The notes under the pieces: generated by a model | The model's input: the letters and a program-made list of their open reading frames with translations, nothing else | Databases searched by the model: none | Told to the model about the DNA's origin: nothing | Shown: positions 2-38,521 of the stretch, one piece after another | How positions within the stretch are numbered: the first letter of the stretch is position 1 | How the letters are laid out: the number at the start of each line of letters is the position of its first letter | Origin: Candidatus Mediterraneibacter guildfordensis | GTDB lineage: Bacteria > Bacillota > Clostridia > Lachnospirales > Lachnospiraceae | NCBI GenBank assembly: GCA_019112735.1 | Contig: DXIS01000017.1 | Location: 124,001-188,000 of the forward strand | Direction: 5' to 3' | DNA length: 64,000 nucleotides | Translations under genes and position numbers: made by a program

Positions 2-586
2 AACGGCAAACTGCTTGTACAGGGCGCGGACCTGATCGACAACAAGCAGATCCTGAAAGAGGCGGATATGGTCGTTCTTGCAGCTGCCATTGAGCCGAAC
101 CCGGATGTTCGGAAGATCGCGACCATGCTCACCGCGAGCATCGACACAAACAACTTCCTTACAGAGGCGCACGCAAAGCTGCGTCCGGTGGAGTCTCCGA
201 CAGCCGGCATCTTCCTCTCGGGCGTATGCCAGGGACCGAAAGATATCCCGGAAACTGTATCCCAGGCAGGAGCTGCCGCTGTGAAAGCCATCGGCCTTCT
301 TGCAAAAGATAAACTGCTGACCAATCCGTGTACGGCACATTCCGATGAACTCCTGTGTAACGGATGTTCCCAGTGTGCGAATGTCTGCCCGTACGGTGCG
401 ATCACCTACGAGGATAAAGAGGTGAACGATCACGGAATCCGCGAGACAAGACGCATTGCGGTTGTAAATGACGCACTGTGCCAGGGCTGCGGTGCCTGCA
501 CCGTAACATGTCCGTCCGGAGCAATGGACCTGCAGGGATTCTCGAACAGACAGATTCTAGCGGAGGTGGATGCGATATGTCGATAG
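2..586 (+). CDS. hdrA: HdrA-like heterodisulfide reductase subunit A (C-terminal part only)
   Basis: The window opens inside this gene; only the last 194 codons are visible, in frame from base 2 to the TAG at 584-586. HdrA is the FAD- and iron-sulfur-containing core of heterodisulfide reductase complexes and the site of flavin-based electron bifurcation in characterised homologues. The visible part has the family-typical stretch GVCQGPKDIPETVSQAG followed by two [4Fe-4S] ferredoxin motifs, CNGCSQCANVCP and CQGCGACTVTCP. The FAD domain lies upstream of the window. The end overlaps the start of the MvhD-like gene by 10 bases, which suggests translational coupling and a shared complex. Whether HdrB or HdrC genes lie upstream cannot be seen. 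Confidence 0.9.
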   Translation, partial: NGKLLVQGADLIDNKQILKEADMVVLAAAIEPNPDVRKIATMLTASIDTNNFLTEAHAKLRPVESPTAGIFLSGVCQGPKDIPETVSQAGAAAVKAIGLLAKDKLLTNPCTAHSDELLCNGCSQCANVCPYGAITYEDKEVNDHGIRETRRIAVVNDALCQGCGACTVTCPSGAMDLQGFSNRQILAEVDAICR

Positions 587-1020
587 AAAAGAATGAAGAA
601 TTCAGACCAAAGATCGTGGCGTTCTGCTGCAACTGGTGCAGCTACGCCGGAGCAGACCTGGCGGGAAGCAGCCGTATGTCCTATTCGGCAGACGTGAAGA
701 TCATCCGCGTTCCCTGTTCATGCCGCGTCAATCCGATGTTCATCTTAAGAGCATTCGAGAAAGGCGCCGACGGCGTGATCATGTGCGGATGCCATCCGGG
801 AGATTGCCACTATACGTCAGGCAACTACTATGCGAGAAGACGTATGACGCTTCTGTTCTCCATGCTGGACTACATCGGAGTGGAGAACGGACGTACCCGC
901 GTTGAGTGGGTATCCGCCGCTGAGGGCGCGAAATTCTCACAGACCATGCATGAGTTTGTGGACAAGATCAAATCCCTTGGCAAGAATGTAAGATTGGAGG
1001 ATTTAAGATGCAGGAATTAA
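577..1020 (+). CDS. mvhD: MvhD/FlxD-like [2Fe-2S] electron-transfer subunit
   Basis: 147 aa, the usual length for the delta subunit of methyl-viologen-reducing hydrogenase, which passes electrons from a hydrogenase or NADH-oxidising partner to HdrA. Cysteine motifs typical of the family are all present: CCNWCSYAGADLAG near residue 15, VPCSCRVNP near 48 and MCGCHPGDCHYTSGN near 68. The ATG at 577 is chosen because a GGAGG at 562-566 sits 10 bases upstream. The gene overlaps hdrA by 10 bases and the next gene by 13. No hydrogenase genes are nearby, so the electron donor is more likely the FAD/NAD(P) protein encoded downstream, as in FlxABCD-HdrABC systems. Confidence 0.9.
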   Translation: MSIEKNEEFRPKIVAFCCNWCSYAGADLAGSSRMSYSADVKIIRVPCSCRVNPMFILRAFEKGADGVIMCGCHPGDCHYTSGNYYARRRMTLLFSMLDYIGVENGRTRVEWVSAAEGAKFSQTMHEFVDKIKSLGKNVRLEDLRCRN

Positions 1021-1982
1021 TCAACCGCGCAAAAGAGCTTCTGGCCGACGGAACCGTGGCAAGAGTGCTCGGATGGAAAGCCGGGGACCTGCCTTACAAT
1101 CCGGAACCGGCTTACTTTGAGAAAGAGGAAGACTTCGCGGATTTCGTTTACAACGGCTTCTGCGGGGCCAACTTAAGCAAATATATGATCGAGGCTTCCA
1201 AGCTGGAGGGCAAAACCCTCGTATGCCTGAAGCCGTGCGATACATACAGCTATCAGGAACTGTTGAAAGAACACCGTGTGGACCGCGAGAAAGCGTATAT
1301 CATCGGCGTGGGCTGCAAGGGCAAGCTGGATATCGAGAAGATCCGCGCCATGGGCATCAAAGGTATCAAAAACATCTCCGGCGCAGAGATCGAAGATGAA
1401 GCGGAGACGCTGACCATCGATACGATCTACGGTGAGAAGACATGCGCGTATACAGACGCCATGCTGGAGAGATGCCACGTATGCAAGGGCAAGGACCATA
1501 TGATCTTTGACGAGATCATCGGCGAGTCCAAAGAGACGAAAGATGCGGACCGTTTCGCGGAAGTAGAGAAGATCGAGGCCATGAGCCCGGAAGAGAAGTT
1601 CGCATTCTTCCAGAAAGAGCTGAGCAAATGCATCCGCTGTAACGCCTGCCGCAATGTATGTCCTGCATGCAGCTGCCGCAAGTGTGTATTTGACAGCAAC
1701 AAGTTCGACAGCTCACAGAAAGCGAACGTGGATTCCTTCGAGGAAAAGATGTTCCACATCATCCGTGCTTTCCATGTGGCCGGAAGATGTACGGACTGCG
1801 GCGAGTGCAGCAGAGTATGTCCGCAGGGCATCCGCCTGCATCTCTTCAACCGCAAGTTTATCAAAGATATCAACGAGCTCTACGGCGAGTATCAGGCCGG
1901 AGCGGACCTGGAGCCCAGGACTCCGCTGACCAACTATACGACGGAAGACGCAGAGCCTGGAATTGTGGCAGAAAGGGGATAA
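1008..1982 (+). CDS. FlxC/FrhB-like 4Fe-4S dicluster electron-transfer protein
   Basis: 324 aa, soluble. The N-terminal half resembles the F420-hydrogenase beta subunit/FlxC type (GKTLVCLKPCDTYSY, YIIGVGCKGK). The C-terminal half carries two ferredoxin-type clusters: CIRCNACRNVCPACSCRKC near residue 208, with the extra Cys-rich tail characteristic of this group, and CTDCGECSRVCP near 265. The downstream protein has the same tail arrangement (CLACGTCTFVCPTCQC), so the two look like divergent paralogues, as FlxB and FlxC do. It probably relays electrons between the FAD/NAD(P) protein and MvhD/HdrA. A GGAGG at 996-1000 supports the start; it overlaps the preceding gene by 13 bases. Confidence 0.8.
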   Translation: MQELINRAKELLADGTVARVLGWKAGDLPYNPEPAYFEKEEDFADFVYNGFCGANLSKYMIEASKLEGKTLVCLKPCDTYSYQELLKEHRVDREKAYIIGVGCKGKLDIEKIRAMGIKGIKNISGAEIEDEAETLTIDTIYGEKTCAYTDAMLERCHVCKGKDHMIFDEIIGESKETKDADRFAEVEKIEAMSPEEKFAFFQKELSKCIRCNACRNVCPACSCRKCVFDSNKFDSSQKANVDSFEEKMFHIIRAFHVAGRCTDCGECSRVCPQGIRLHLFNRKFIKDINELYGEYQAGADLEPRTPLTNYTTEDAEPGIVAERG

Positions 1983-1986
1983 TGTT

Positions 1987-3027
1987 ATGTATAAGATCGC
2001 AAAAGAAAATCTGACGGCATTATTTCAGAAGATCGCCGCAGAACAGGAATTATATCTTCCGGTCCGCAATGAAGGACAGGTGAACTTCGGCGCCTGGACG
2101 GAAGAGGCGGATGTGGATATTGATACGCTCAAGACGGTCAAATCTCCGAAAGACGCGTTCTTCCCGCAGAGCGAGACGCTTTACACCTGCGTGAAGGAAG
2201 GGAAGAAGATTAGCGTGACGCCGGAGGCGTTAAAAGAGCAGAACTTTGTTGTATTCGGCATGAGAGCCTGCGATGTGAGAGGTGTGGAAGTGCTGGATAA
2301 AGTGTTCCTCGTTGACCCGCTGGATACATTCTATGCGGCGAGACGCGACCACGGTACGATCGTAGCCCTTGCCTGCCACGAGCCGGAAGAAACCTGCTTC
2401 TGCAAGGTGTTCGGAATCGATGCGGCAGAGCCGGCGGCAGATGTCGCAACCTGGCTCATCGGAGATGAACTGTACTGGAAACCGCTCACTGAGAAGGGTA
2501 AGGCGCTGACAGACGCTGTGAAAGACGTACTCACAGAGGACGGAAGTGCAGATGAGACGGTAGAGAAAGAAAAAGAAGCGATCCGCGGCATCGTGGAGCA
2601 GCTTCCGTACACCCACCTTTCCCTGAAGGGATGGAACGGCGACGTCCTGATGGAGAAATTCGAGGACCCGCTGTGGGATGAACTCTACAAACCGTGCCTT
2701 GCATGCGGCACCTGCACATTTGTGTGCCCTACATGCCAGTGCTACGATATCAAAGACTATGACACAGGAAAGAACGGCGTGCAGAGATACCGCTGCTGGG
2801 ATTCCTGTATGTACTCAGACTTTACGATGATGGCCCACGGCAACAACCGTAAGTCACAGAAAGAAAGATTCCGCCAGAGATTCATGCACAAGCTCGTATA
2901 CTTCCCGGCGAACAACGACGGGATGTACTCCTGCGTAGGCTGCGGCCGCTGCGTGGAGAAATGTCCGGAATCCCTGAACATCGTGAAGGTGATCAAAGCA
3001 TTTGCAAAAAGGGGAGGTGAAAAGTAA
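1987..3027 (+). CDS. FlxB/AsrA/sulfhydrogenase-beta-like 4Fe-4S protein
   Basis: 346 aa. It matches the family that includes anaerobic sulfite reductase subunit A, sulfhydrogenase beta and FlxB: a long N-terminal domain with FGMRACDVRGVEVLDK near residue 90, then two [4Fe-4S] sites, CLACGTCTFVCPTCQC near 235 and CVGCGRCVEKCPESLN near 315. Proteins of this family sit between an FAD/NAD(P) reductase partner and the catalytic subunits. The ATG at 1987 follows an AAAGGGG box; a longer reading frame from 1963 would lack this site. The stop overlaps the ATG of the next gene (TAATG at 3025-3029), so the two subunits are probably translated together. Confidence 0.82.
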   Translation: MYKIAKENLTALFQKIAAEQELYLPVRNEGQVNFGAWTEEADVDIDTLKTVKSPKDAFFPQSETLYTCVKEGKKISVTPEALKEQNFVVFGMRACDVRGVEVLDKVFLVDPLDTFYAARRDHGTIVALACHEPEETCFCKVFGIDAAEPAADVATWLIGDELYWKPLTEKGKALTDAVKDVLTEDGSADETVEKEKEAIRGIVEQLPYTHLSLKGWNGDVLMEKFEDPLWDELYKPCLACGTCTFVCPTCQCYDIKDYDTGKNGVQRYRCWDSCMYSDFTMMAHGNNRKSQKERFRQRFMHKLVYFPANNDGMYSCVGCGRCVEKCPESLNIVKVIKAFAKRGGEK

Positions 3028-3881
3028 TGAGTGAATGTACATGCCATAAGAACTATACACTGGATACCCTGATCCCGAAGGTAGGCGTGATCACAGATAT
3101 CCGCGAGGAGACGCCGGACGTTAAGACATTCCGCGTCAATGCGCCGGAAGGCGGCAAGCTCTTCGAGCATATGCCGGGACAGTGCGCGATGCTCTGTGCG
3201 CCGGGGATCAGCGAGGGTATGTTTTCGATTACTTCTTCGCCGACCAACAAAGAATACCAGGAGTTCAGCATTAAGAAGTGCGGAATGCTCACAGATTATC
3301 TCCACAGCCTGGAAGTGGGGGATGAGATCACTGTCCGCGGACCGTACGGCAATCATTTCCCGGTAGAGGACAAGCTCAAAGGTAAAGACCTGCTGTTCAT
3401 CGCCGGCGGCATCGGCCTTGCGCCGCTTCGTTCCGTGATCAACTATGTGCTGGACAACCGTGACGACTACGGCACCGTGGATATCGTATACGGTTCCCGC
3501 TCCGCAGACGACCTGGTACAGTTAAAGGAGATCCAGGAAGTGTGGATGAACGCACCGGATGTGCATGTCCACCTGACCATCGACCGCGAGCAGGAAGGAT
3601 GGGACGGCCATGTGGGATTCGTGCCGAACTATGTGAAGGAGCTTGGCTTCGATGTAAACAAGACGGCGCTGATCTGCGGACCTCCGATCATGATCAAGTT
3701 CACGCTGGCCGGACTGGAAGAACTGGGATTCTCCAGAGATCAGGTCTACACGACGCTGGAGCTGCGTATGAAATGCGGCATCGGCAAGTGCGGCAGATGC
3801 AACATCGGATCAAAATATGTATGTAAAGACGGCCCGGTATTTCGTTGCGATGAGATCGATGAGATGCCGAATGAGTACTAG
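3027..3881 (+). CDS. FlxA/AsrB-like FAD/NAD(P)-binding oxidoreductase subunit
   Basis: 284 aa, of the ferredoxin-NADP reductase fold found in AsrB, sulfhydrogenase gamma and FlxA. An FAD-binding barrel is followed by the nucleotide-binding segment FIAGGIGLAPLRS (about residues 124-136) and, near the C-terminus, a [2Fe-2S] motif CGIGKCGRC with a further Cys. In characterised relatives it oxidises NADH or NADPH and hands electrons to the neighbouring iron-sulfur subunit. Its presence is the main reason to infer a pyridine-nucleotide donor for the whole cluster. Which of NADH or NADPH is used cannot be read from the sequence. The start overlaps the stop of the FlxB-like gene by one base. Confidence 0.85.
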   Translation: MSECTCHKNYTLDTLIPKVGVITDIREETPDVKTFRVNAPEGGKLFEHMPGQCAMLCAPGISEGMFSITSSPTNKEYQEFSIKKCGMLTDYLHSLEVGDEITVRGPYGNHFPVEDKLKGKDLLFIAGGIGLAPLRSVINYVLDNRDDYGTVDIVYGSRSADDLVQLKEIQEVWMNAPDVHVHLTIDREQEGWDGHVGFVPNYVKELGFDVNKTALICGPPIMIKFTLAGLEELGFSRDQVYTTLELRMKCGIGKCGRCNIGSKYVCKDGPVFRCDEIDEMPNEY

Positions 3882-3898
3882 GGAAAGGAAGAAATATC

Positions 3899-4573
3899 AT
3901 GGAAAAGATGGTAAATGTATATTTTTTCGGTAAGAAATACAGTGTGCCGGCAGACCTGACGATCATGACAGCGATGGAATATGCGGGTTATACACTGAAA
4001 AGAGGATGCGGATGCCGTCACGGTTTCTGCGGTGCCTGCGCGACGATCTACAGGATCAAAGGCAAGAATGAGCTGAAAACATGCCTGGCCTGTCAGACAC
4101 AGGTAGAAGAGGGCATGTATGTGGCAAGCATCCCGTTCTTCCCGACAGACAAGAGAACCTACGACATTAACGAAGTGAAACCGGAGCAGCGCATCATGAT
4201 GGATCTCTATCCGGAGATCTACAGCTGCATCGGCTGTAACGCCTGCACAAAGGCCTGCACACAGGACCTGAATGTAATGCAGTACATTGCATATGCACAG
4301 CGCGGCGAATTCGAGAAGTGTGCGGAAGAGTCCTTCGACTGTATCGGATGCGGATGCTGTTCCGTAAGATGTCCGGCAGAGATCTCCCACCCGATGGTCG
4401 GAGTCCTTGCAAGACGTCTCACAGGAAAATACATCGCGCCGGAGTCCAAACACCTGACCGAGCGTGTTGAGGAGATCCACCACGGCGACTACGATCAGCT
4501 CATCGAGCAGATCATGGAGAAGCCGATTGAAGAGATGCAGGAACTTTACAACAACAGAGAGATCGAGAAATAA
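3899..4573 (+). CDS. Fumarate reductase/succinate dehydrogenase-type iron-sulfur subunit
   Basis: 224 aa. The N-terminal domain carries a [2Fe-2S] motif CGCRHGFCGAC (residues 37-47) with C62 and C65; the C-terminal half has CIGCNACTKAC (110-120) and CIGCGCCSVRCP (148-159). This resembles SdhB/FrdB or the N-terminal half of thiol:fumarate reductase TfrB, but the HdrB-like CCG domains of TfrB are absent. It would pass electrons to the flavoprotein encoded next. In place of the usual [3Fe-4S] quinone-side site it has two ferredoxin-like motifs, consistent with a soluble rather than quinone-linked enzyme. The preceding gene ends 17 bases upstream; GGAAAGGAAG lies before the ATG. Confidence 0.82.
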   Translation: MEKMVNVYFFGKKYSVPADLTIMTAMEYAGYTLKRGCGCRHGFCGACATIYRIKGKNELKTCLACQTQVEEGMYVASIPFFPTDKRTYDINEVKPEQRIMMDLYPEIYSCIGCNACTKACTQDLNVMQYIAYAQRGEFEKCAEESFDCIGCGCCSVRCPAEISHPMVGVLARRLTGKYIAPESKHLTERVEEIHHGDYDQLIEQIMEKPIEEMQELYNNREIEK

Positions 4574-4585
4574 GGAGGGAAGATC

Positions 4586-6187
4586 ATGTTTACACCGGAA
4601 ATGATGGAATCCGTTAAGAAAGTGGAGGCCACCAGAGAAGCGCGTCTGGGCGTTGAACCGAGACGTATGACTGCGGATGAGAAAGATGCTCTCCTTAAGG
4701 AGTTCCATCCTGATTACAAGGAAGACGCATTCGCGGAGATCAAGGTAGGACCGAACAAAGGGCAGAAAGCGCCGAGGGAGCTGGTACATCTTCTCCACTC
4801 CAACAGCCGTCTGCTCACAGACAAAGTAGATATCAGCAAAGTGGATTATGACGTGGACGTTCTCGTGATCGGCGGCGGCGGAGCGGGAGCTTCCGCAGCC
4901 ATCGAGGCAAATGAGGCGGGCGCCAATGTTATGATCGTGACAAAACTCCGTATCGGCGATGCCAATACGATGATGGCAGAGGGCGGCATCCAGGCTGCAG
5001 ACAAAGAGAACGACTCTCCGGTACAGCACTACCTGGACGCATTCGGCGGCGGACATTTCGCTGCAAGACCGGAGCTTTTAAGACGTCTTGTCATGGAAGC
5101 GCCGGACGCCATCAAATGGCTCAATGAACTGGGCGTTATGTTCGACAAGGATGAGACGGGCCGTATGATCACCACACACGGCGGCGGAACATCCAGAAAG
5201 AGAATGCATGCCTGCAAGGATTACTCCGGAGCAGAGATCATGCGTACCCTTCGCGACGAAGTCCTGAACCGTCAGATCCCGGTCGTTGAATTTACGGCTG
5301 CGGTAGAACTTATTAAAGACGACAGAGGACAGGTCGCGGGTGCGGTTCTCCAGAACCTGGAGACAGACGATTACCTGGTGGCAAAAGCGAAAACCGTCAT
5401 CATCGCCACAGGCGGTGCGGGACGTATGCACTATCAGGGATTCCCGACATCCAACCATTACGGAGCAACAGCAGACGGCCTGATCCTCGGATACCGTCTG
5501 GGCGCACCGCTCCTTTACCAGGATACGATCCAGTATCACCCGACAGGCGTGGCATTCCCGTCACAGATCTTCGGCGCGCTGGTTACAGAGAAGGTACGTT
5601 CCGTAGGCGCACAGCTTGTCAATGTGGACGGCGAGGCATTCATGCATCCGCTTGAGACCCGTGACGTGGCTGCGGCATCCATTATCCGTGAGTGTACGGC
5701 GCGCGGCAAAGGCGTGACCACACCGCTCGGAAGCGGCGTATGGCTTGATACGCCGATGATCGAGATGCTCGGCGGACCGGGAACGATCGAGAAACGCATC
5801 CCGGCGATGCTGCGTATGTACATGAACTATGATATCGATATGAGAAAACTTCCGATCCTTATCTACCCGACCCTTCACTATCAGAACGGCGGACTTGAGA
5901 TCGGAGGAGACGGCTTTACAAAAGTCATCGACAACCTGCTCGTTGCAGGTGAGGCTGTCGGCGGAATCCACGGAAGAAACCGTCTGATGGGCAACTCTCT
6001 CCTTGATATCATCGTATTCGGACGCAATGCAGGGAAGGCTGCAGCGGCCAAAGCAAAAAATGTGGAACTGGGCAATATGAACCTGGATCACATCGAAGCA
6101 TATGCGGAAGAACTGAAAGACGCAGGATTAAGCACAGGAGATGTATCTCCGCTGATCCTTCCGAAATATGCGAGACACGAGAGATAG
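4586..6187 (+). CDS. Soluble fumarate reductase-type flavoprotein subunit
   Basis: 533 aa, of the SdhA/FrdA/NadB FAD superfamily. About 90 residues of charged N-terminal extension precede the FAD-binding GGGGAGASAA (96-105). Active-site landmarks are HPTG (318-321), the RD pair at 359-360 that normally supplies the proton-donating Arg, HYQNGG (431-436) and RLMGNSLL (466-473). The position that holds the covalent-FAD histidine in SdhA/FrdA is Asn127 (DANTMMAEGG), so FAD is probably non-covalent, as in TfrA and NadB. The C-terminal region after 473 is only about 60 residues, shorter than SdhA. No signal peptide is seen. With the fumarase downstream, fumarate to succinate is the likely direction; another enoate substrate cannot be excluded. 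Confidence 0.82.
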   Translation: MFTPEMMESVKKVEATREARLGVEPRRMTADEKDALLKEFHPDYKEDAFAEIKVGPNKGQKAPRELVHLLHSNSRLLTDKVDISKVDYDVDVLVIGGGGAGASAAIEANEAGANVMIVTKLRIGDANTMMAEGGIQAADKENDSPVQHYLDAFGGGHFAARPELLRRLVMEAPDAIKWLNELGVMFDKDETGRMITTHGGGTSRKRMHACKDYSGAEIMRTLRDEVLNRQIPVVEFTAAVELIKDDRGQVAGAVLQNLETDDYLVAKAKTVIIATGGAGRMHYQGFPTSNHYGATADGLILGYRLGAPLLYQDTIQYHPTGVAFPSQIFGALVTEKVRSVGAQLVNVDGEAFMHPLETRDVAAASIIRECTARGKGVTTPLGSGVWLDTPMIEMLGGPGTIEKRIPAMLRMYMNYDIDMRKLPILIYPTLHYQNGGLEIGGDGFTKVIDNLLVAGEAVGGIHGRNRLMGNSLLDIIVFGRNAGKAAAAKAKNVELGNMNLDHIEAYAEELKDAGLSTGDVSPLILPKYARHER

Positions 6188-6206
6188 AAAGGAAGAGTAA
6201 GACAAC

Positions 6207-7376
6207 ATGTTTTTAGTTAACTGGTTTCAGGAGAGCGTAATGAGCGAGACGCTGATGGTCCTTTTCCTGGTGGCTTTCATCGGCTACCTGGTTGGAAGCA
6301 TCACGATCAAGGGCGTAGAGCTGGGAACAGCCGGCGTCCTGATCGTCGCTCTGGTATTCGGCCATTTTCTCGGCCACGACGAGGCGCTGGTGGAAGGTCT
6401 TGGCATGTTCCAGGACCTGGGCCTCATCTGCTTCGTTACGTCCGTCGGTTTTATTGCCGGACCGAAGTTCTTCCGGAACTTTAAGATCAATGCAAAATCC
6501 TATATCCTGCTTGGCTTCATCATTATCGCCATCGGTGCGCTGACAACGGTGGGCGTTATCGAGATCGCAGGCGTGCCGACTGATATCACGGTAGGCATGA
6601 TGTCCGGAGCCCTTACAAGTACGCCGGGACTTGCGGCAGCGCTTGACGCTACCGGTTCTGCAAATGCATCCATCGGATACGGTATCGCCTATCCCTTCGG
6701 AGTGATCGGCGTTGTGCTGTTCGTACAGCTCATGCCGAAGATCCTTCACACAGATATGGATGCAGAGCGGGCACAGTTCGAGGCGGCTCAGAATGTAGGA
6801 GACATTCAGAAGAAAGACAAACTGTTCCATGTTGATCCGATGGGCCTGTTCGCATTTTCACTGGCGATCGCACTCGGCATCATCCTGGCGAAGATCGTTA
6901 TCCCGCTTCCGGGCGGCGCACAGTTCTCACTGGGAACTTCCGGCGGTCCGCTGATTGCAGGCCTGATCCTTGGACATTTTGGACATGCGGGTAAGATCAG
7001 CTTCCATGTGGAGAAATCCGTGCTCGAATGCCTGAGAGAGTTCGGTCTTGCACTGTTCCTGATCGGAGCGGGCGTAGAGGCCGGCGCAGGTTTCATCGAG
7101 ATCCTCAAAGAGCAGGGACTGATCCTCTTCGTATACGGCGCGCTGATCACACTGATTCCGATGATTGTTGGATACTTTGTTGCAACCAAGTTCATGAAGC
7201 TGAGCCTCTTCAATACGCTCGGCTCCATCTGCGGCGGTATGACAAGTACACCGGCCCTGGGAACACTGATCGCCGTGACCGGAACAGACGACGTGGCAAG
7301 CGCATATGCTGCGACTTACCCCGTGGCGCTGGTATTCGTCGTACTGGCGTGCCAGTTTATCGGCATATTCTTATGA
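6207..7376 (+). CDS. AspT/YidE/YbjL-family transporter, compact form
   Basis: 389 aa, strongly hydrophobic with roughly 10-12 membrane segments. It shows two copies of the aspartate-alanine exchanger domain, each with the signature loop: GALTSTPGLAAALD near residue 137 and GGMTSTPALGTL near 346. Typical AspT/YidE proteins (about 550 aa) have two cytosolic TrkA_C domains between the membrane halves; here that region is only a short charged linker (about 185-212). The position between fumarate reductase and fumarase genes suggests a C4-dicarboxylate or aspartate/succinate exchanger, but that is inferred from context. It starts 19 bases after the flavoprotein gene with GGAAGAG upstream. Confidence 0.75.
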   Translation: MFLVNWFQESVMSETLMVLFLVAFIGYLVGSITIKGVELGTAGVLIVALVFGHFLGHDEALVEGLGMFQDLGLICFVTSVGFIAGPKFFRNFKINAKSYILLGFIIIAIGALTTVGVIEIAGVPTDITVGMMSGALTSTPGLAAALDATGSANASIGYGIAYPFGVIGVVLFVQLMPKILHTDMDAERAQFEAAQNVGDIQKKDKLFHVDPMGLFAFSLAIALGIILAKIVIPLPGGAQFSLGTSGGPLIAGLILGHFGHAGKISFHVEKSVLECLREFGLALFLIGAGVEAGAGFIEILKEQGLILFVYGALITLIPMIVGYFVATKFMKLSLFNTLGSICGGMTSTPALGTLIAVTGTDDVASAYAATYPVALVFVVLACQFIGIFL

Positions 7377-7381
7377 TATCA

Positions 7382-7436
7382 GGGTTCAAAAGTCCTGACC
7401 GGCATGCGTGCATGCGCGGACAGGACCTTGGAACCC
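7382..7436 (+). repeat. Long imperfect stem-loop between transporter and fumarase genes
   Basis: Reading inwards, bases 7382-7407 pair with 7410-7436 almost throughout: GGGTTC with GAACCC, then GTCCTG with CAGGAC, CCG with CGG, and GCATGC with GCATGC. There are three mismatches and one bulged G. No T-run follows, so it is not a standard intrinsic terminator. It could stabilise the upstream transcript, separate expression of the two gene pairs or bind a regulator. Further smaller inverted repeats (GAATCG/CGATTC, CTGCTC/GAGCAG) lie between it and the fumarase start at 7610. Confidence 0.7.
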
Positions 7437-7609
7437 GTAACAAAATGAGAAAGAAGCCCGGCAGGGCGGATTTTGAATTTTGTTAGAATCGTGGGAGCGC
7501 AGAGCGCGGAGCGATTCGTAGATATCATAAAAGATACGGCTGCTCTATGTATGAGCAGAGCGCGGGCCGAACGAAATTTTAACAAACATTAGAAAGGAGT
7601 TGACTTCCA

Positions 7610-8452
7610 ATGCGTGAAATCAATGTAAGTACACTCACCGATGTGATCGAGAGACTGTGCATCGATGCAAATGAGCACCTTCCGGAAGACGTAAAATGCG
7701 CCATCCGCAGCTGCCGTGCATGCGAGGACGGGGAGATCGCAAAAGGCGTTCTCGACAATATCATCGAGAACTTCGAGATCGCGGACAACGAAGACGTGCC
7801 GATCTGCCAGGATACAGGTATGGCATGTGTTTTCCTTGAGATCGGACAGGACGTACACCTTGTGGGCGGCGACTTAAGAGAAGCGGTTGACGAGGGCGTA
7901 CGCCGCGGATATACAAACGGATATCTGCGGAAATCTGTTGTAAAGGATCCGGTGCGCCGCGGCAATACCGGCGACAATACGCCGGCAATGCTTTACACGG
8001 AGATCGTTCCGGGTGAAAACATCAAGGTTACAGTCGGACCGAAGGGATTCGGAAGCGAGAATATGAGCCAGATCCGTATGTTCAAACCGTCAGCAGGCCT
8101 TCAGGGCATCAAGGATTTCATCCTCGAGGCGGTAGAGACAGCCGGCCCGAACCCGTGTCCGCCTATGGTAGTGGGCGTGGGCATCGGCGGTACATTTGAC
8201 AAATGTGCGCTCCTTGCAAAGAAAGCGCTCATGAGACCGCTTGATTCTTCCAATCCGGATCCGTTCTATGCAGATCTTGAGAAAGAGATGCTGGAGAAGG
8301 TAAACGAGCTGGGCATCGGACCGCAGGGATTCGGCGGAAAGACGACAGCCATCGGCCTGAACATCGAAACAATGCCGACTCATATCGCAGGCATGCCCTG
8401 TGCAGTCAATATCAACTGCCACGTGACACGCCACAAATCGGAGGTGATTTAA
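7610..8452 (+). CDS. Class I fumarate hydratase (tartrate dehydratase-type) alpha subunit
   Basis: 280 aa, the N-terminal-domain subunit of a two-subunit, oxygen-sensitive [4Fe-4S] fumarase. Recognisable stretches include VPICQDTGMACVFLEIG near residue 64, RRGNTGDNTPAMLY near 114 and GVGIGGTFDKCALLAKKA near 190; Cys residues in these regions are the expected cluster ligands. It interconverts malate and fumarate, or tartrate and oxaloacetate in the Ttd relatives. The neighbouring reductase supports fumarase. AAAGGAG at 7593-7599 precedes the ATG by about 10 bases. The stop is directly followed by the ATG of the beta subunit, with no gap. Confidence 0.92.
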   Translation: MREINVSTLTDVIERLCIDANEHLPEDVKCAIRSCRACEDGEIAKGVLDNIIENFEIADNEDVPICQDTGMACVFLEIGQDVHLVGGDLREAVDEGVRRGYTNGYLRKSVVKDPVRRGNTGDNTPAMLYTEIVPGENIKVTVGPKGFGSENMSQIRMFKPSAGLQGIKDFILEAVETAGPNPCPPMVVGVGIGGTFDKCALLAKKALMRPLDSSNPDPFYADLEKEMLEKVNELGIGPQGFGGKTTAIGLNIETMPTHIAGMPCAVNINCHVTRHKSEVI

Positions 8453-9010
8453 ATGGCAAGAAAGATCACATTACCACTCACAGAGGAACTTGCTAAGACA
8501 CTCCACGCGGGAGATCAGCTGCTCCTTACCGGAACGATCTACACATCCCGTGACGCCGGACACAAGAGAATGTGCGAGGCGCTGGCAAAAGGAGAGGAGA
8601 TCCCCTTTGATCCGAAGGATGCCACGATCTACTATGTAGGACCGACACCGGCGAAACCGGGACATGTCATCGGCAGTGCAGGCCCGACAACAAGCGGACG
8701 TATGGATGCATACGCACCGACCATGATGTCCGTGGGCGCGCGCGGCATGATCGGAAAAGGCGCACGTCTTCCTGAAGTAGTGGAAGCCATGAAGAAATAC
8801 AGCGGCGTATACTTCGGAGCCATCGGCGGCGCCGGCGCACTGCTTGCAAAATGTATCAAAAAAGCGGAGCTGATCGCGTTCGAGGATCTCGGAGCAGAAG
8901 CTCTCAGAAAACTTTATGTGGAGGATATGCCGGTGGTTGTTATCATCGACAGCGAAGGCAATAACCTTTACGAAGAGGGAAGAAAAGCATATCTGGATTC
9001 AAAGAAATAG
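8453..9010 (+). CDS. Class I fumarate hydratase (tartrate dehydratase-type) beta subunit
   Basis: 185 aa, the C-terminal-domain subunit of the two-part class I hydro-lyase. The motifs YVGPTPAKPGHVIGSAGPTT (about residues 62-81) and SVGARGMIGKGA near 93 are typical, as is FGAIGGAGALLAKCI near 122. Together with the alpha subunit it forms the catalytic dimer that hydrates fumarate. It is fused as one polypeptide in many other bacteria but separate here. It is the last gene before a strong bidirectional terminator, so the redox cluster probably ends here. Confidence 0.92.
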   Translation: MARKITLPLTEELAKTLHAGDQLLLTGTIYTSRDAGHKRMCEALAKGEEIPFDPKDATIYYVGPTPAKPGHVIGSAGPTTSGRMDAYAPTMMSVGARGMIGKGARLPEVVEAMKKYSGVYFGAIGGAGALLAKCIKKAELIAFEDLGAEALRKLYVEDMPVVVIIDSEGNNLYEEGRKAYLDSKK

Positions 9011-9015
9011 TCATT

Positions 9016-9060
9016 AAAAAAACTGCCGGGATATGATATTCATATCCCGGCAGTTTTTTT
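9016..9060. terminator. Bidirectional intrinsic terminator
   Basis: A perfect inverted repeat: a run of A, then ACTGCCGGGATATGA, a TAT loop, and the exact reverse complement ending in seven T. It terminates the fumarase operon on the plus strand and the Rpn-like remnant on the minus strand. Confidence 0.93.
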
Positions 9061-34821: not shown

Positions 34822-34850
34822 TTTAAATCGGCAAAGTATTGTGTTATACT
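34822..34850 (+). promoter_or_regulatory. Possible promoter of the aryl-CoA ligase/IOR cluster
   Basis: TTTAAA (34822-34827), a 17-base spacer and TATACT (34845-34850), 40 bases before the first ligase ATG. The -35 box is weak. Confidence 0.4.
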
Positions 34851-34889
34851 ATCCAAAGGCATATGTTTAATCAAAGGAGGGCGCATACG

Positions 34890-36200
34890 ATGATATGGGC
34901 AAAGGAAGAGACTCTGCCAAGAGACGAGATCGAAGCGATCCAGTACGCGAAGCTGAAGGGTACGGTCCGCTATATTTATGACAGAGTGAAACCCTACCGC
35001 GACAAGATGGACGCGGCGAAGGTTAAGCCGGAGGACATCCGTTCACTGGATGACCTGAAAAGGCTGCCGTTTACATATAAGGCTGATTTCCGGGACAACT
35101 ACCCGGACGGGCTTTTTGCAGTGGATAAGAAAGAGATCGTGCGTTATCACGCCAGTTCAGGAACGACAGGGAAGCCGACGGTTGTCGGATATACGAGGAA
35201 TGATCTGGACATGTGGCTCAATAACGTGGCGCGCATTGCCTGTATGGGCGGCGCGTCTGCAGAGGATGTGGCGCAGATCTCATTCGGATACGGGACATTT
35301 ACAGGAGCCCTCGGACTCCACGGAGGACTGGAGAAGGTCGGTGCATCCGTGATCCCCATGTCTTCGGGAAATACGAACAAGCAGATCATGTTCCTTCAGG
35401 ATATGGGCGTGACCCTTCTGGTGGCGACGCCGTCCTACGCCCTGCATCTGGGTGAGGAGATCCGCAACCGGGGGATCAATCCACAGAAAGACCTGAAGCT
35501 TCATATCGGACTTTTCGGCGGCGAGGGCATGACAGAGCCCATGCGCGATGAGATGCATAAAGTCTGGGGCGGGCAGTTCTTCTGTACCCAGAACTATGGA
35601 ATGAGCGAACTGTGCGGCCCGGGCGTGGCAGGAGAGTGCAGTGAGCTGTGCGGCATGCATATCAACGAAGACTGGTTCATCCCGGAAGTCATTGATCCGG
35701 AGACCGAGGAAGTGCTCCCGCCGGGCGAACTGGGCGAGCTTGTTGTGACCTGCCTGGGCAAAGAGGCCCTTCCCCTTGTAAGATACCGCACGGGCGATCT
35801 GACCCGTCTGATGTATGAACCGTGCAAATGCGGCCGTACGACCTGCCGGATGGAGAATATTTCCGGACGCGCGGACGACATGCTCGTGATCCGCGGCGTG
35901 AACGTATTCCCAACCCAGATCGAGGAAGTACTCCTCAAGATCGAGGAGATCGGTCCGCACTATGAGATCCTCGTAGAGCGCAAGAACCGGCTGGATGTCA
36001 TGACAATCACCGTTGAGCTGATCGACGACCGTCTGCTTGACAGCTACGGAAAACTGAGCGAGCTGGAGGCGCGGATCAAGAAGGCCCTGAAGGCGCAGCT
36101 CGGACTGGCGACCCAGATCCGTCTGGTGGCGCCCAATTCCCTGAAGCGTTTCGAGGGCAAGGCAAAACGGGTGACAGATTTACGAAAGGATGGTTTATGA
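34890..36200 (+). CDS. Phenylacetate--CoA ligase family protein (first copy)
   Basis: 436 aa, an ANL-superfamily adenylate-forming enzyme of the PaaK type, activating an aryl-acetate to its CoA thioester or working in reverse to make ATP. Motifs: YHASSGTTGKPTVVGYT (ATP-binding, about residues 86-102), FGYGTFTGALGLHGG near 131, NYGMSELCGPGVAGEC near 236, and VIRGVNVFPTQIEEVL near 335 in the C-terminal PaaK domain. The ATG at 34890 follows AAAGGAGGG. Its stop abuts the iorA start, showing close coupling to the oxidoreductase whose product is an aryl-acyl-CoA. Confidence 0.9.
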   Translation: MIWAKEETLPRDEIEAIQYAKLKGTVRYIYDRVKPYRDKMDAAKVKPEDIRSLDDLKRLPFTYKADFRDNYPDGLFAVDKKEIVRYHASSGTTGKPTVVGYTRNDLDMWLNNVARIACMGGASAEDVAQISFGYGTFTGALGLHGGLEKVGASVIPMSSGNTNKQIMFLQDMGVTLLVATPSYALHLGEEIRNRGINPQKDLKLHIGLFGGEGMTEPMRDEMHKVWGGQFFCTQNYGMSELCGPGVAGECSELCGMHINEDWFIPEVIDPETEEVLPPGELGELVVTCLGKEALPLVRYRTGDLTRLMYEPCKCGRTTCRMENISGRADDMLVIRGVNVFPTQIEEVLLKIEEIGPHYEILVERKNRLDVMTITVELIDDRLLDSYGKLSELEARIKKALKAQLGLATQIRLVAPNSLKRFEGKAKRVTDLRKDGL

Positions 36201-36201
36201 T

Positions 36202-37947
36202 ATGGCAGACAAAGTGATCATGCTGGGCAATGAAGCCATTGCCCGCGGAGCATATGAAGCGGGAGTGAAAGTGTCTTCCGCGTACCCGGGAACTCCGAGT
36301 ACGGAGATCAGCGAATACCTGGTGCAGTACCGGGATGATGTATACGAGGAGTGGGCGCCGAATGAGAAGGTGGCCACAGAAGTAGCGGTTGGAGCGAGCC
36401 TTTCCGGCGTCCGCGCCATGGCCTGCATGAAGCATGTGGGACTGAATGTGGCGGCGGATCCGCTGTATTCCGTATCCTACATGGGCGTCAATGGCGGCCT
36501 TGTCATCGTCGTTGCCGATGATCCGGGACTTTACAGCTCCCAGAACGAGCAGGATACAAGAATGGTGGCGAGAGCGGCGCAGATCCCGGTGATCGAACCG
36601 TCCGACAGCGCGGAGGCGAAAGATTACTTTAAAGCGGCTTTTGAGCTGAGCGAGCAGTTTGACCGTCCGTTCATCTTCCGCACCACGACCCGTCTTGCCC
36701 ATTCCCAGGGACTGGTAGAGCTTCAGGAACATGTGGTCCCGGAAGATAAGCCCTATGTGAAGAACATCCAGAAAAATGTTATGATGCCGGGCAATGCGAA
36801 GCTCCGCCATGTGGAGATCGAGAAGCGCAACCTGGAGCTTGCAGAAGCGGCGAACAGCCTGCCCATCAACCGGGTGGAAATGAATGACACGAAGATCGGC
36901 GTCATTACGAGCGGCATTCCCTATCAGTATGTGAAAGAGGCCATGCCGGAGGCGTCTGTCCTGAAGCTTGGAATGGTCAATCCGCTTCCAAGGAAGATGA
37001 TCGAAGACTTTGCATCCAAAGTTGAGACCTTATATATCGTGGAGGAGCTGGATCCGGTGATCGAGGAGCAGGTGAAATCCTGGGGCATCGAATGCATCGG
37101 CAAGGAGATCCTGACCGTTCAGGGCGAGTACAGCGCAAATATGCTGAGAAAAGCGATCCTCAAAGAGGATCTTGATATCAAAGAACCGGCGGCTGCGCCG
37201 GGAAGACCGCCGATCCTCTGTCCGGGATGTCCGCACCGCAGTGTATTCTACACGCTGAACCGGCTGAAAATGCATGCGGCGGGCGATATCGGATGCTATA
37301 CCCTCGGAGCGGTCGCGCCGCTGAGCGTGATCGATACGACTATGTGTATGGGTTCCAGCATCTCCACCCTGCACGGTATGGAGAAGGCAAAAGGCAAAGA
37401 CTATATTAAGAACTGGGTGGCCGTGATCGGAGATTCCACATTCATGCACACCGGTGTGAACTCCCTGATGAACATGGTTTACAACAAAGCAACCGGCACT
37501 GTGATCATTCTGGACAACTCCACCACCGGCATGACCGGACACCAGGACCATGCGGCGACCGGGAAGACGCTGCAGGGCGATCCCACCTATGCGATCAGCA
37601 TCCCCGGCATCTGCAAAGCCATGGGTATCAAAAATGTATACGAGATCAATGCCTTTGACCTGCCGCTCCTTGAGAAAACGATCAAAGAAGAAGTGGCGAA
37701 GGATGAGATCTCAGTGATCATCACAAAGACGCCGTGCGTTCTTCTCGACAAGAGAAAGAAGCCGCTTTATACGGCCCATGCGGATAAATGTAAGAAATGC
37801 GGCGCATGCATGAAGCCGGGATGTCCGGCCATGACGAAGAATCCGGACGGCACGGTCCGCATCGACGATACGATGTGCACCGGATGCGGGCTCTGCAAAG
37901 ACCTGTGTAAATTCGACGCCATAGAGCTTGTAAGGGAGGGTGAGTAA
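36202..37947 (+). CDS. iorA: Indolepyruvate:ferredoxin oxidoreductase alpha subunit
   Basis: 581 aa. IorAB oxidatively decarboxylates aryl-pyruvates to aryl-acetyl-CoA with reduction of ferredoxin, reversibly. The N-terminal pyrimidine-binding domain has SSAYPGTPSTEISEYL; the thiamine diphosphate domain contains GDIGCYTLGAVAPL and a GDSTFMHTG...N pattern near 415; the C-terminus has two [4Fe-4S] motifs, CKKCGACMKPGCP and CTGCGLCKDLCK. The ATG at 36202 follows AAAGGA (36185-36190); an in-frame ATG at 36190 lies in that site. It starts one base after the first ligase gene and is coupled to iorB. Confidence 0.95.
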   Translation: MADKVIMLGNEAIARGAYEAGVKVSSAYPGTPSTEISEYLVQYRDDVYEEWAPNEKVATEVAVGASLSGVRAMACMKHVGLNVAADPLYSVSYMGVNGGLVIVVADDPGLYSSQNEQDTRMVARAAQIPVIEPSDSAEAKDYFKAAFELSEQFDRPFIFRTTTRLAHSQGLVELQEHVVPEDKPYVKNIQKNVMMPGNAKLRHVEIEKRNLELAEAANSLPINRVEMNDTKIGVITSGIPYQYVKEAMPEASVLKLGMVNPLPRKMIEDFASKVETLYIVEELDPVIEEQVKSWGIECIGKEILTVQGEYSANMLRKAILKEDLDIKEPAAAPGRPPILCPGCPHRSVFYTLNRLKMHAAGDIGCYTLGAVAPLSVIDTTMCMGSSISTLHGMEKAKGKDYIKNWVAVIGDSTFMHTGVNSLMNMVYNKATGTVIILDNSTTGMTGHQDHAATGKTLQGDPTYAISIPGICKAMGIKNVYEINAFDLPLLEKTIKEEVAKDEISVIITKTPCVLLDKRKKPLYTAHADKCKKCGACMKPGCPAMTKNPDGTVRIDDTMCTGCGLCKDLCKFDAIELVREGE

Positions 37948-37948
37948 G

Positions 37949-38521
37949 ATGGCAGTAAAGAATATTATGATCGTCGGCGTCGGCGGACAGGGAACCCTGC
38001 TCACCAGCCGGATCCTCGGCGGACTTACCATCGCGGCAGGCTATGATGTAAAGCTTTCGGAAGTGCACGGTATGGCGCAGCGCGGCGGAAGCGTGGTGAC
38101 ATTCGTGCGCTACGGTGACAAAGTGGCGGAGCCGATCGTGGAAGAAGGACAGGCGGACGTCATCATTGCATTCGAGCGTCTGGAAGCGCTCCGGTACGCG
38201 CATTTCCTTAAAAAAGACGGCGCACTGGTTGTCAATGACTGGCGGATCGACCCGATGCCGGTCGTGATCGGAAACGCGCAGTATCCGGAACATATCCTTG
38301 AGGATCTGGAAAAGGACTATAAAGTATATAAAGTGGATGCGACGGAAGAGTCCCGGAAGCTGGGCAACCCGAAGGTGTTCAACCTGATCGTGCTCGGCGT
38401 TGCGGCGCAGCACATGGACTTTACGAAAGAGCAGTGGTATGAGGTGATCGAGAAGACCGTTCCGCCGAAGACCATCGAGATCAATAAAAAAGCGTTTGAC
38501 GTGGGATATAATCTGAAATAG
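37949..38521 (+). CDS. iorB: Indolepyruvate:ferredoxin oxidoreductase beta subunit
   Basis: 190 aa, the gamma-domain-like partner of IorA. The N-terminus MAVKNIMIVGVGGQGTLLTS and MAQRGGSVVTFVRYG near 44 are characteristic of 2-oxoacid:ferredoxin oxidoreductase small subunits. The ATG at 37949 follows GGGAGG (37934-37939); an upstream in-frame GTG at 37940 is too close to that site. It lies one base after the iorA stop, so the two subunits should be made in equal amounts. Confidence 0.94.
   Translation: MAVKNIMIVGVGGQGTLLTSRILGGLTIAAGYDVKLSEVHGMAQRGGSVVTFVRYGDKVAEPIVEEGQADVIIAFERLEALRYAHFLKKDGALVVNDWRIDPMPVVIGNAQYPEHILEDLEKDYKVYKVDATEESRKLGNPKVFNLIVLGVAAQHMDFTKEQWYEVIEKTVPPKTIEINKKAFDVGYNLK

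Follow-up and report, generated by a model that had tools for sequence, protein, structure and literature searches.

A conserved operon joining hdr, flx and fumarate reductase genes in Candidatus Mediterraneibacter guildfordensis and other gut Clostridia, with a predicted role in NADH-dependent, ferredoxin-coupled fumarate reduction

A cluster of hdr, flx and frd genes lies at the start of a 64,000-nucleotide stretch of the genome of Candidatus Mediterraneibacter guildfordensis (assembly GCA_019112735.1, contig DXIS01000017.1, positions 124,001 to 188,000, forward strand), hereafter called the window. It can be compared with FlxABCD-HdrABC of Desulfovibrio, reportedly described by Ramos in 2015, with TfrAB, the thiol:fumarate reductase of methanogens, and with FrdABCD, the quinol:fumarate reductase of Escherichia coli. 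A further counterpart is the succinate operon of Pseudoclostridium thermosuccinogenes, which, according to the available part of PMC7282089, contains genes for fumarase, Flx-Hdr (CDQ83_RS03360-30), fumarate reductase and a putative transporter. In the same part of that paper fumarate reduction is assumed to be linked to ferredoxin reduction, with a 2019 preprint on the subject being cited, and the transcripts of the comparable operon are reported to rise about 4-fold under CO2 limitation, not significantly for all subunits. Blautia luti, as described in the available part of PMC12773636, forms succinate and displays fumarate reductase and malate dehydrogenase activity, and its metabolic model makes use of a theoretical NADH-dependent fumarate reductase.

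The window had previously been annotated from its letters alone (the sequence-only reading), and a ferredoxin-linked fumarate reductase had been put forward as a new idea; in fact, such an enzyme in such an operon had already been proposed for P. thermosuccinogenes (PMC7282089, in its available part). Added here are the complete operon, its distribution among gut Clostridia, features of FrdA and FrdB, and a predicted Rex-type operator conserved at the operon start. Judging from gene content and conserved residues, the operon probably encodes a fumarate/ferredoxin reductase which oxidises NADH and bifurcates its electrons, and HdrB would feed FrdB.

The contig from which the window is taken has 207,896 bases; the 5' edge of the window falls inside hdrA, splitting the operon. 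The 10 kb located 5' of the window were therefore read as well, as sequence L002 (window position equals L002 position minus 10000), and found to contain, on the same strand, the rest of hdrA and three further genes, encoding a protein of the lactate dehydrogenase/malate dehydrogenase (LDH/MDH) family, HdrB and HdrC. The complete unit is made up of 13 genes on one strand, ldh/mdh-hdrB-hdrC-hdrA-flxD-flxC-flxB-flxA-frdB-frdA-aspT-fumA-fumB, reported in Table 1. The ten genes named in the sequence-only reading were confirmed, in place and on one strand, by their open reading frames (ORFs) and by Pfam and NCBIfam matches. Their tight spacing holds from hdrA through aspT, with intergenic gaps of -13 to +19 bases, and between fumA and fumB, where the gap is 0, but not before fumA, which is preceded by 233 bases; upstream, hdrB and hdrC overlap by 4 bases and hdrC ends 6 bases before hdrA. 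The terminator reported at the operon end is also present, as a hairpin with a perfect stem starting 12 bases past fumB, which the automatic terminator scan did not list. The operon contains no membrane anchor gene, in agreement with the soluble FrdAB suggested earlier.

Table 1. Genes and other features of the operon. Positions refer to the window, unless marked L002.
Feature	Position	Strand	Evidence or remark
LDH/MDH-family gene	L002 6446-7393	+	outside window
hdrB	L002 7408-8205	+	outside window
hdrC	L002 8202-8591	+	outside window
hdrA, 3' part	2..586 (full gene L002 8598-10586, 662 aa)	+	686 bits to HdrA 5odc_A, residues 3-660
flxD (MvhD/FlpD family)	577..1020	+	PF02662 182.9 bits; five Cys invariant 40/40
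flxC, two 4Fe-4S motifs and more invariant Cys	1008..1982	+	Fer4 families; 15 Cys invariant 29/29
flxB, AsrA / sulfhydrogenase beta-like iron-sulfur protein	1987..3027	+	PF17179 109.7 bits; ShyB 190.2, AsrA 161.8 bits, both below cut-off
flxA, FAD/NAD(P)H oxidoreductase subunit	3027..3881	+	PF00175, PF00970, PF10418; hydrogenase gamma / AsrB-like
frdB, 2Fe-2S and two 4Fe-4S motifs, without C-terminal CCG domain	3899..4573	+	12 cluster Cys invariant 64/64
frdA, short fumarate reductase flavoprotein, N-terminal extension, without Succ_DH_flav_C	4586..6187	+	PF00890 (FAD_binding_2); active-site residues 63/63; fold match 1kf6_A
AspT/YidE/YbjL family antiporter	6207..7376	+	PF06826 (Asp-Al_Ex) 247.7 bits; TIGR01625 above cut-off
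Clostridiales-1 RNA (RF01699), aspT-fumA gap	7374..7527	+	123.4 bits, gathering 48
class I fumarase alpha subunit	7610..8452	+	PF05681 (Fumerase) 392.6 bits
class I fumarase beta subunit	8453..9010	+	PF05683 (Fumerase_C) 202.9 bits
probable operon terminator: perfect 14-base stem, 3-base loop, T run	9023..9060	+	read directly

The locus shares with the P. thermosuccinogenes operon the presence of frdAB, fumarase, Flx-Hdr and transporter genes in one operon. The two have been likened by description only, and they differ in that the fumarase and transporter tags lie at opposite ends of the P. thermosuccinogenes operon, while an LDH/MDH gene or a Rex site is not mentioned in the available part of PMC7282089. 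All seven subunits of the Desulfovibrio system are encoded here, with conserved Cys motifs. For that system a disulfide carrier, for instance DsrC, has been proposed as the acceptor (PMC4215793, in its available part), whereas here frdBA joins the cluster.

The conservation of each subunit was evaluated on the phylum- and family-set sequences exceeding length and score filters, with the window sequence included; ORFs below the filters were excluded, among them the LDH-family matches of L034 (143 bits), L084 (256 bits, partial) and L091 (236 bits). HdrA is near the solved HdrA chains 5odc, 8rvu and 7bkb, matching the first across its whole length, and 26 of its 32 Cys, including four 4Fe-4S-type motifs, are invariant in 37/37 sequences, which agrees with the role of bifurcation core assigned to it in the sequence-only reading. 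HdrB matches five solved HdrB sequences, contains PF02754 twice, and keeps all ten ligands of its CCG motifs in 43/43 sequences; the eight Cys of HdrC, forming two 4Fe-4S motifs, are kept in 42/42. All three proteins score below the NCBIfam cut-offs of the methanogen models. FlxA carries NAD and FAD domains together with a DHODB iron-sulfur domain, and four C-terminal Cys are invariant in the 30 sequences compared; FlxB and FlxC have iron-sulfur motifs and FlxD is MvhD-like. FlxA and FlxB resemble the gamma and beta subunits of sulfhydrogenase, as well as AsrB and AsrA, with all scores below the curated cut-offs.

FrdA shares with its E. coli counterpart the fold and the active site. Its predicted model (mean predicted local distance difference test score, pLDDT, 68; predicted template modelling score, pTM, 0.74) finds E. 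coli FrdA as its best PDB match, with a TM-score of 0.62 by query length, and the fumarate-site residues H233, E246, R288, H356 and R391 (E. coli gene numbering) are kept in 63/63 sequences. The FAD domain starts at residue 91, and Asn replaces the His which binds FAD covalently, again in 63/63. E. coli FrdA deprived of this His is said to still reduce fumarate and to oxidise succinate poorly; the replacement would therefore fit a one-way fumarate reductase. PF02910 (Succ_DH_flav_C) was not found in FrdA at an E value of 0.01 and was present in the E. coli FrdA control. L-aspartate oxidase models also match FrdA, for which fumarate reductase is the predicted function.

FrdB is the least certain gene name of the operon, as its sequence is matched best by RnfC-type ferredoxin domains, and these and other ferredoxin domains come ahead of SdhB/FrdB or TfrB. 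The name was given because its clusters follow the order of those of E. coli FrdB, 11 Cys of the two proteins being aligned, and because of the place of the gene before frdA. Four 2Fe-2S Cys and the eight Cys of two 4Fe-4S sites are conserved in 64/64 sequences; among them C151 adds a fourth Cys at the position of the E. coli 3Fe-4S site, generating a 4Fe-4S motif in every sequence. This feature, along with the missing anchor gene, covalent-FAD His and C-terminal flavoprotein domain, separates the operon from FrdABCD. TfrAB is similar in that TfrA is the closest curated model for FrdA (324.8 bits versus a cut-off of 718), and TfrB aligns partly to FrdB and partly to HdrB; here, however, FrdB and HdrB are two distinct proteins accompanied by an NADH module, and the scores fall far below the TfrA and TfrB cut-offs, which places the locus outside that family.

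The arrangement was sought in other genomes. FrdB is present in 39 of 398 genomes sampled from the phylum and in 27 of 299 genomes of the family, taken one per genus (own genome counted in both sets). A collection of named relatives was also built, consisting of the best 80 of at least 545 confirmed relatives among at least 591 candidates. For 57 of these 80 loci, at least 7 kb precede frdB: the nine-gene core hdrB-hdrC-hdrA-flxD-flxC-flxB-flxA-frdB-frdA is found in order in 56, while L141 stops at a contig edge after frdB, and hdrB and hdrC are present in all 57. With the order kept in 56/57 named relatives, the gene arrangement is not due to chance. Forty-two named loci have long flanks on both sides, where an LDH-family gene was found in 33 cases, an AspT-like gene in 27 and fumA-fumB in 29. 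The core is also complete in 23/25 loci of the family set, the other two (L088, L104) being cut by contig ends. In the genus of genome G656, FrdA occurs in 15/64 genomes, and 12 of 13 loci have the complete core, the thirteenth being cut. The three sets overlap in part, and G560, a fragment, and G724 were left out.

Two of the complete cores, L084 in the family set and L201 in the genus set, have hdrA split over two ORFs, by a broken gene or an assembly error; in the named set, adjacent ORFs with the same name were merged by the scoring, which hides any such split. An identical FrdB (100%) is encoded by a metagenome-assembled genome (MAG) labelled Candidatus Mediterraneibacter merdipullorum. 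Other carriers, by label, are Blautia glucerasea, B. schinkii, [Clostridium] asparagiforme, Dorea sp. 5-2, Sporofaciens musculi, Porcincola intestinalis, Christensenella intestinihominis and an uncultured Treponema. In the last case (L172, a MAG) the nine-gene core includes a 75% identical FrdB, its presence there being due either to transfer across phyla or to wrong binning.

In addition, 38 other phylum loci were sorted by hand on the neighbours of frdBA. In five of them hdrB, hdrC, hdrA and flxDCBA adjoin frdBA, following it in four; in 11, hdrA and an MvhD gene precede frdBA, without flxAB; five others read hdrC-hdrB-frdB-frdA, with no hdrA alongside. FrdBA is thus a module linked with Hdr proteins in many loci, but not in all. 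In eight loci (L052, L055, L056, L059, L060, L062, L064, L065) the genes before frdBA are hdrC-hdrB-hdrA, another long HdrA-like ORF and an MvhD gene, without flxAB, and these loci may represent a different Hdr-linked arrangement of a fumarate reductase or succinate dehydrogenase. The loci without hdrA are L038, L044, L048, L051 and L058; fumarase genes adjoin in L048, L051 and L058, and the contig of L044, only 3.8 kb long, ends in the neighbour of frdB.

An 18-base inverted repeat is located before the first gene (L002 6251-6268), with one mismatch in 14 positions to TTGTTAA-N4-TTAACAA, which we take to be the Rex consensus; a promoter-like site, TTGTCA-17-TATGAT, overlaps it, the two together covering L002 6251-6279. 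The repeat was searched for in 92 operon-start regions, 87 of them distinct, obtained from 119 loci, the others having no hdrB or not enough contig sequence. With up to two mismatches it was found in 41 of the 87 distinct regions. Control regions of equal design, taken before hdrA, flxC, frdB and frdA and at a distance of another 900 bases upstream, gave 0/88, 0/88, 0/88, 0/86 and 0/84, respectively. The best of 104 permuted half-sites matched five regions, other spacings matched between none and two, and dinucleotide shuffles reached the same mismatch level in 0.7%. The operon-start regions are related to one another, so that these counts are not independent events. Where the LDH-family gene is taken as the start of the operon, 33 of 45 operons have the repeat. 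A gene with a Rex DNA-binding domain is also present in this genome, and, with an operator-like site near a promoter-like one, the operon appears to belong to a Rex regulon. Rex senses the NADH/NAD+ ratio, and control of this kind would support NADH as the electron donor. Predicted Rex sites similar to the consensus are printed in the available part of PMC5886521.

The first gene product contains Arg where two aligned LDH chains have Gln, and Arg is found in 17/17 sequences above the filter (window genome counted). Arg at LDH position 102 is presumably a sign of malate dehydrogenase; PDB chain 1y6j, labelled L-LDH, has Arg at the same position, which makes the MDH reading of the first gene a lead, not a proof. 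The AspT-like antiporter is a possible transporter of succinate or other C4-dicarboxylates. The genome also carries phosphoenolpyruvate carboxykinase and four [FeFe]-hydrogenase matches.

In the mechanism proposed, the operon would constitute the reductive branch leading from oxaloacetate to exported succinate, with the last step coupling energy. The first gene's enzyme, of the LDH family and with an MDH-type Arg, would convert oxaloacetate to malate, fumarase would dehydrate malate, and the antiporter would move C4-dicarboxylates, the substrates of the first enzyme and of the antiporter being putative. FlxA would oxidise NADH, and electrons would reach the FAD of HdrA by way of FlxBC and FlxD, to be bifurcated there: one would pass via the ferredoxin domains of HdrA to ferredoxin, and the other via HdrC and HdrB to FrdB and FrdA, reducing fumarate. 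HdrB and FrdB would jointly play the role of the single TfrB chain of methanogens. The net reaction would be 2 NADH + fumarate + Fd(ox) -> 2 NAD+ + succinate + Fd(red), which by hand arithmetic at standard potentials amounts to about -33 to -53 kJ/mol (NADH -320 mV and fumarate +33 mV, PMC5861303; ferredoxin -400 to -500 mV, PMC12773636; values from the available part of each paper). Rex would repress the operon until NADH accumulates. Reduced ferredoxin would be used by Rnf in most relatives, or by hydrogenase in this genome.

Different routes between the Hdr-Flx proteins and FrdAB may be envisaged. In the sequence-only reading an HdrA-FlxABCD complex had FrdAB as its high-potential branch, instead of HdrBC. 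This is tenable only as long as the upstream sequence is left out of account: hdrB and hdrC, with all their cluster Cys, were found directly upstream, one half of what that reading had itself named as a refutation, and they accompany frdB in every named close relative with enough sequence, which deprives the idea of nearly all its credit. Direct transfer from HdrB to FrdB is suggested by the TfrB model, a single chain of 488 positions, to which FrdB aligns at 19-87, HdrC at 118-219 and HdrB at 415-487. Moreover, the best NCBIfam match of HdrB is SdhE, the CCG subunit of 8-methylmenaquinol:fumarate reductase (MFR), with 145.7 bits, followed by the HdrB model with 142.3, both below cut-off; SdhE and, by its proposed role, HdrB are both CCG proteins serving fumarate reductases. 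Together with the hdrCB-frdBA loci, these comparisons favour direct transfer, while leaving some room for a thiol carrier. In the version based on such a carrier, HdrABC-FlxABCD would bifurcate NADH electrons to ferredoxin and to an unspecified disulfide, and FrdAB would use the resulting thiols as a thiol:fumarate reductase does, being coupled to the other subunits without contact. Both CCG motifs of HdrB are kept in all 43 sequences, the curated family closest to FrdA is TfrA, even if below its cut-off, and the Flx-Hdr of sulfate reducers has been proposed to reduce DsrC (PMC4215793, in its available part); but FrdB is devoid of the HdrB-like C-terminal part found in TfrB, no DsrC was found in this genome (completeness 89.9%), and the operon contains no obvious carrier gene. 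We regard this version as rather unlikely. That the nine core subunits form one soluble complex with direct transfer from HdrB to FrdB, carrying out a quinone-free and membrane-free fumarate respiration under Rex control, with one reduced ferredoxin per succinate, in gut Clostridia, seems to us an evenly balanced proposition.

The Hdr-Flx proteins might also merely conduct electrons, without reducing ferredoxin, making the enzyme a plain NADH:fumarate reductase as in the model for B. luti. This species makes succinate, shows viologen-dependent fumarate reductase activity and transcribes frdAB, and no word starting with hdr occurs in the main text of PMC12773636. The similarity of HdrA, over its whole length, to solved bifurcating chains and its conserved Cys motifs speak against mere conduction, and seven extra subunits would be a costly outfit for a downhill transfer, making this explanation improbable. 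A link to quinones was considered and rejected: besides the lack of an anchor gene in the operon, the two matches to MenD, at 62.8 and 55.2 of 244.2 bits, are below cut-off, the futalosine route not having been searched. NADH-driven, ferredoxin-coupled fumarate reduction, as suggested by the sequence-only reading, stays the best interpretation of the operon.

Several observations weigh against this interpretation or parts of it. For 17 of the 38 phylum loci, neither hdr nor flx genes accompany frdBA in the stretch examined (three of these, L034, L042 and L067, offer less than 2.4 kb before frdB), and the neighbours of frdBA, judged from translations only, are for example malic-enzyme-like or pyruvate-carboxylase-like; FrdBA can therefore have other donors. 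With regard to direct transfer, the HdrC-TfrB match is unspecific, being equalled by FlxC in the same region (E 6.8e-6 versus 6.4e-6), FrdB scores 40 bits with RnfC models versus 35 with TfrB (35.1 of 385 bits), and the presence of both CCG motifs in every HdrB would suit thiol/disulfide chemistry equally well. The structure prediction of FrdB is poor (pLDDT 46), and its fold is a putative one. The first gene is above the NCBIfam cut-off for L-lactate dehydrogenase (340 bits, cut-off 303.6) and not for the malate dehydrogenase subfamily (279.9 of 283). The Rex-type repeat is present in only 8 of 42 operons taken to begin with hdrB, and promoter-like sites are no commoner than in shuffled sequences (14 versus 11.3). 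A Rnf/Nqr membrane protein (PF03116) was not found in this genome, whose 89.9% completeness may point to an assembly gap, and the profit from ferredoxin is consequently less clear here; a protein of this type occurs in 263/299 family genomes. Finally, neither a purified complex of this composition nor its control by Rex was found in the titles and abstract starts of open-licence PMC papers, where broader topics were covered by the top-ranked papers only.

Rnf was also considered as a specific partner of the operon, and discarded: counted by eye, it is present in 22 of the 27 FrdB-positive family genomes and missing from 5, compared with 31 lacking it among the other 272, and no clear association is seen. 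Further along the window, an AMP-binding ligase adjoins IorA-like and IorB-like genes (36190-38521, within the interval 34839-38521), as in arylpyruvate oxidation. The IorAB enzyme usually works in the direction which reduces ferredoxin, and its counterpart here is likely a source of reduced ferredoxin, not a consumer; the earlier suggestion that the fumarate reductase operon supplies it with ferredoxin is accordingly weak. The Clostridiales-1 RNA lying in the gap before fumA has a second copy on another contig of the same genome; none was detected in the loci of 7 relatives, and it was not retained as a conserved part of the operon.

The core is found in genomes labelled, among others, Mediterraneibacter, Blautia, Dorea and Christensenella, so that one neglected complex may set the amount of ferredoxin, and hence of ATP and H2, accompanying succinate formation in the gut. 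The presence of a Rex-type operator would make the link to NADH accessible to simple genetics. Should succinate formation prove to be bifurcating, the model for B. luti and others like it would have to count one more reduced ferredoxin for each succinate in those cases where frdAB belongs to the cluster; and if the nine-subunit complex is real, current fermentation models of such bacteria would miscount ATP and hydrogen.

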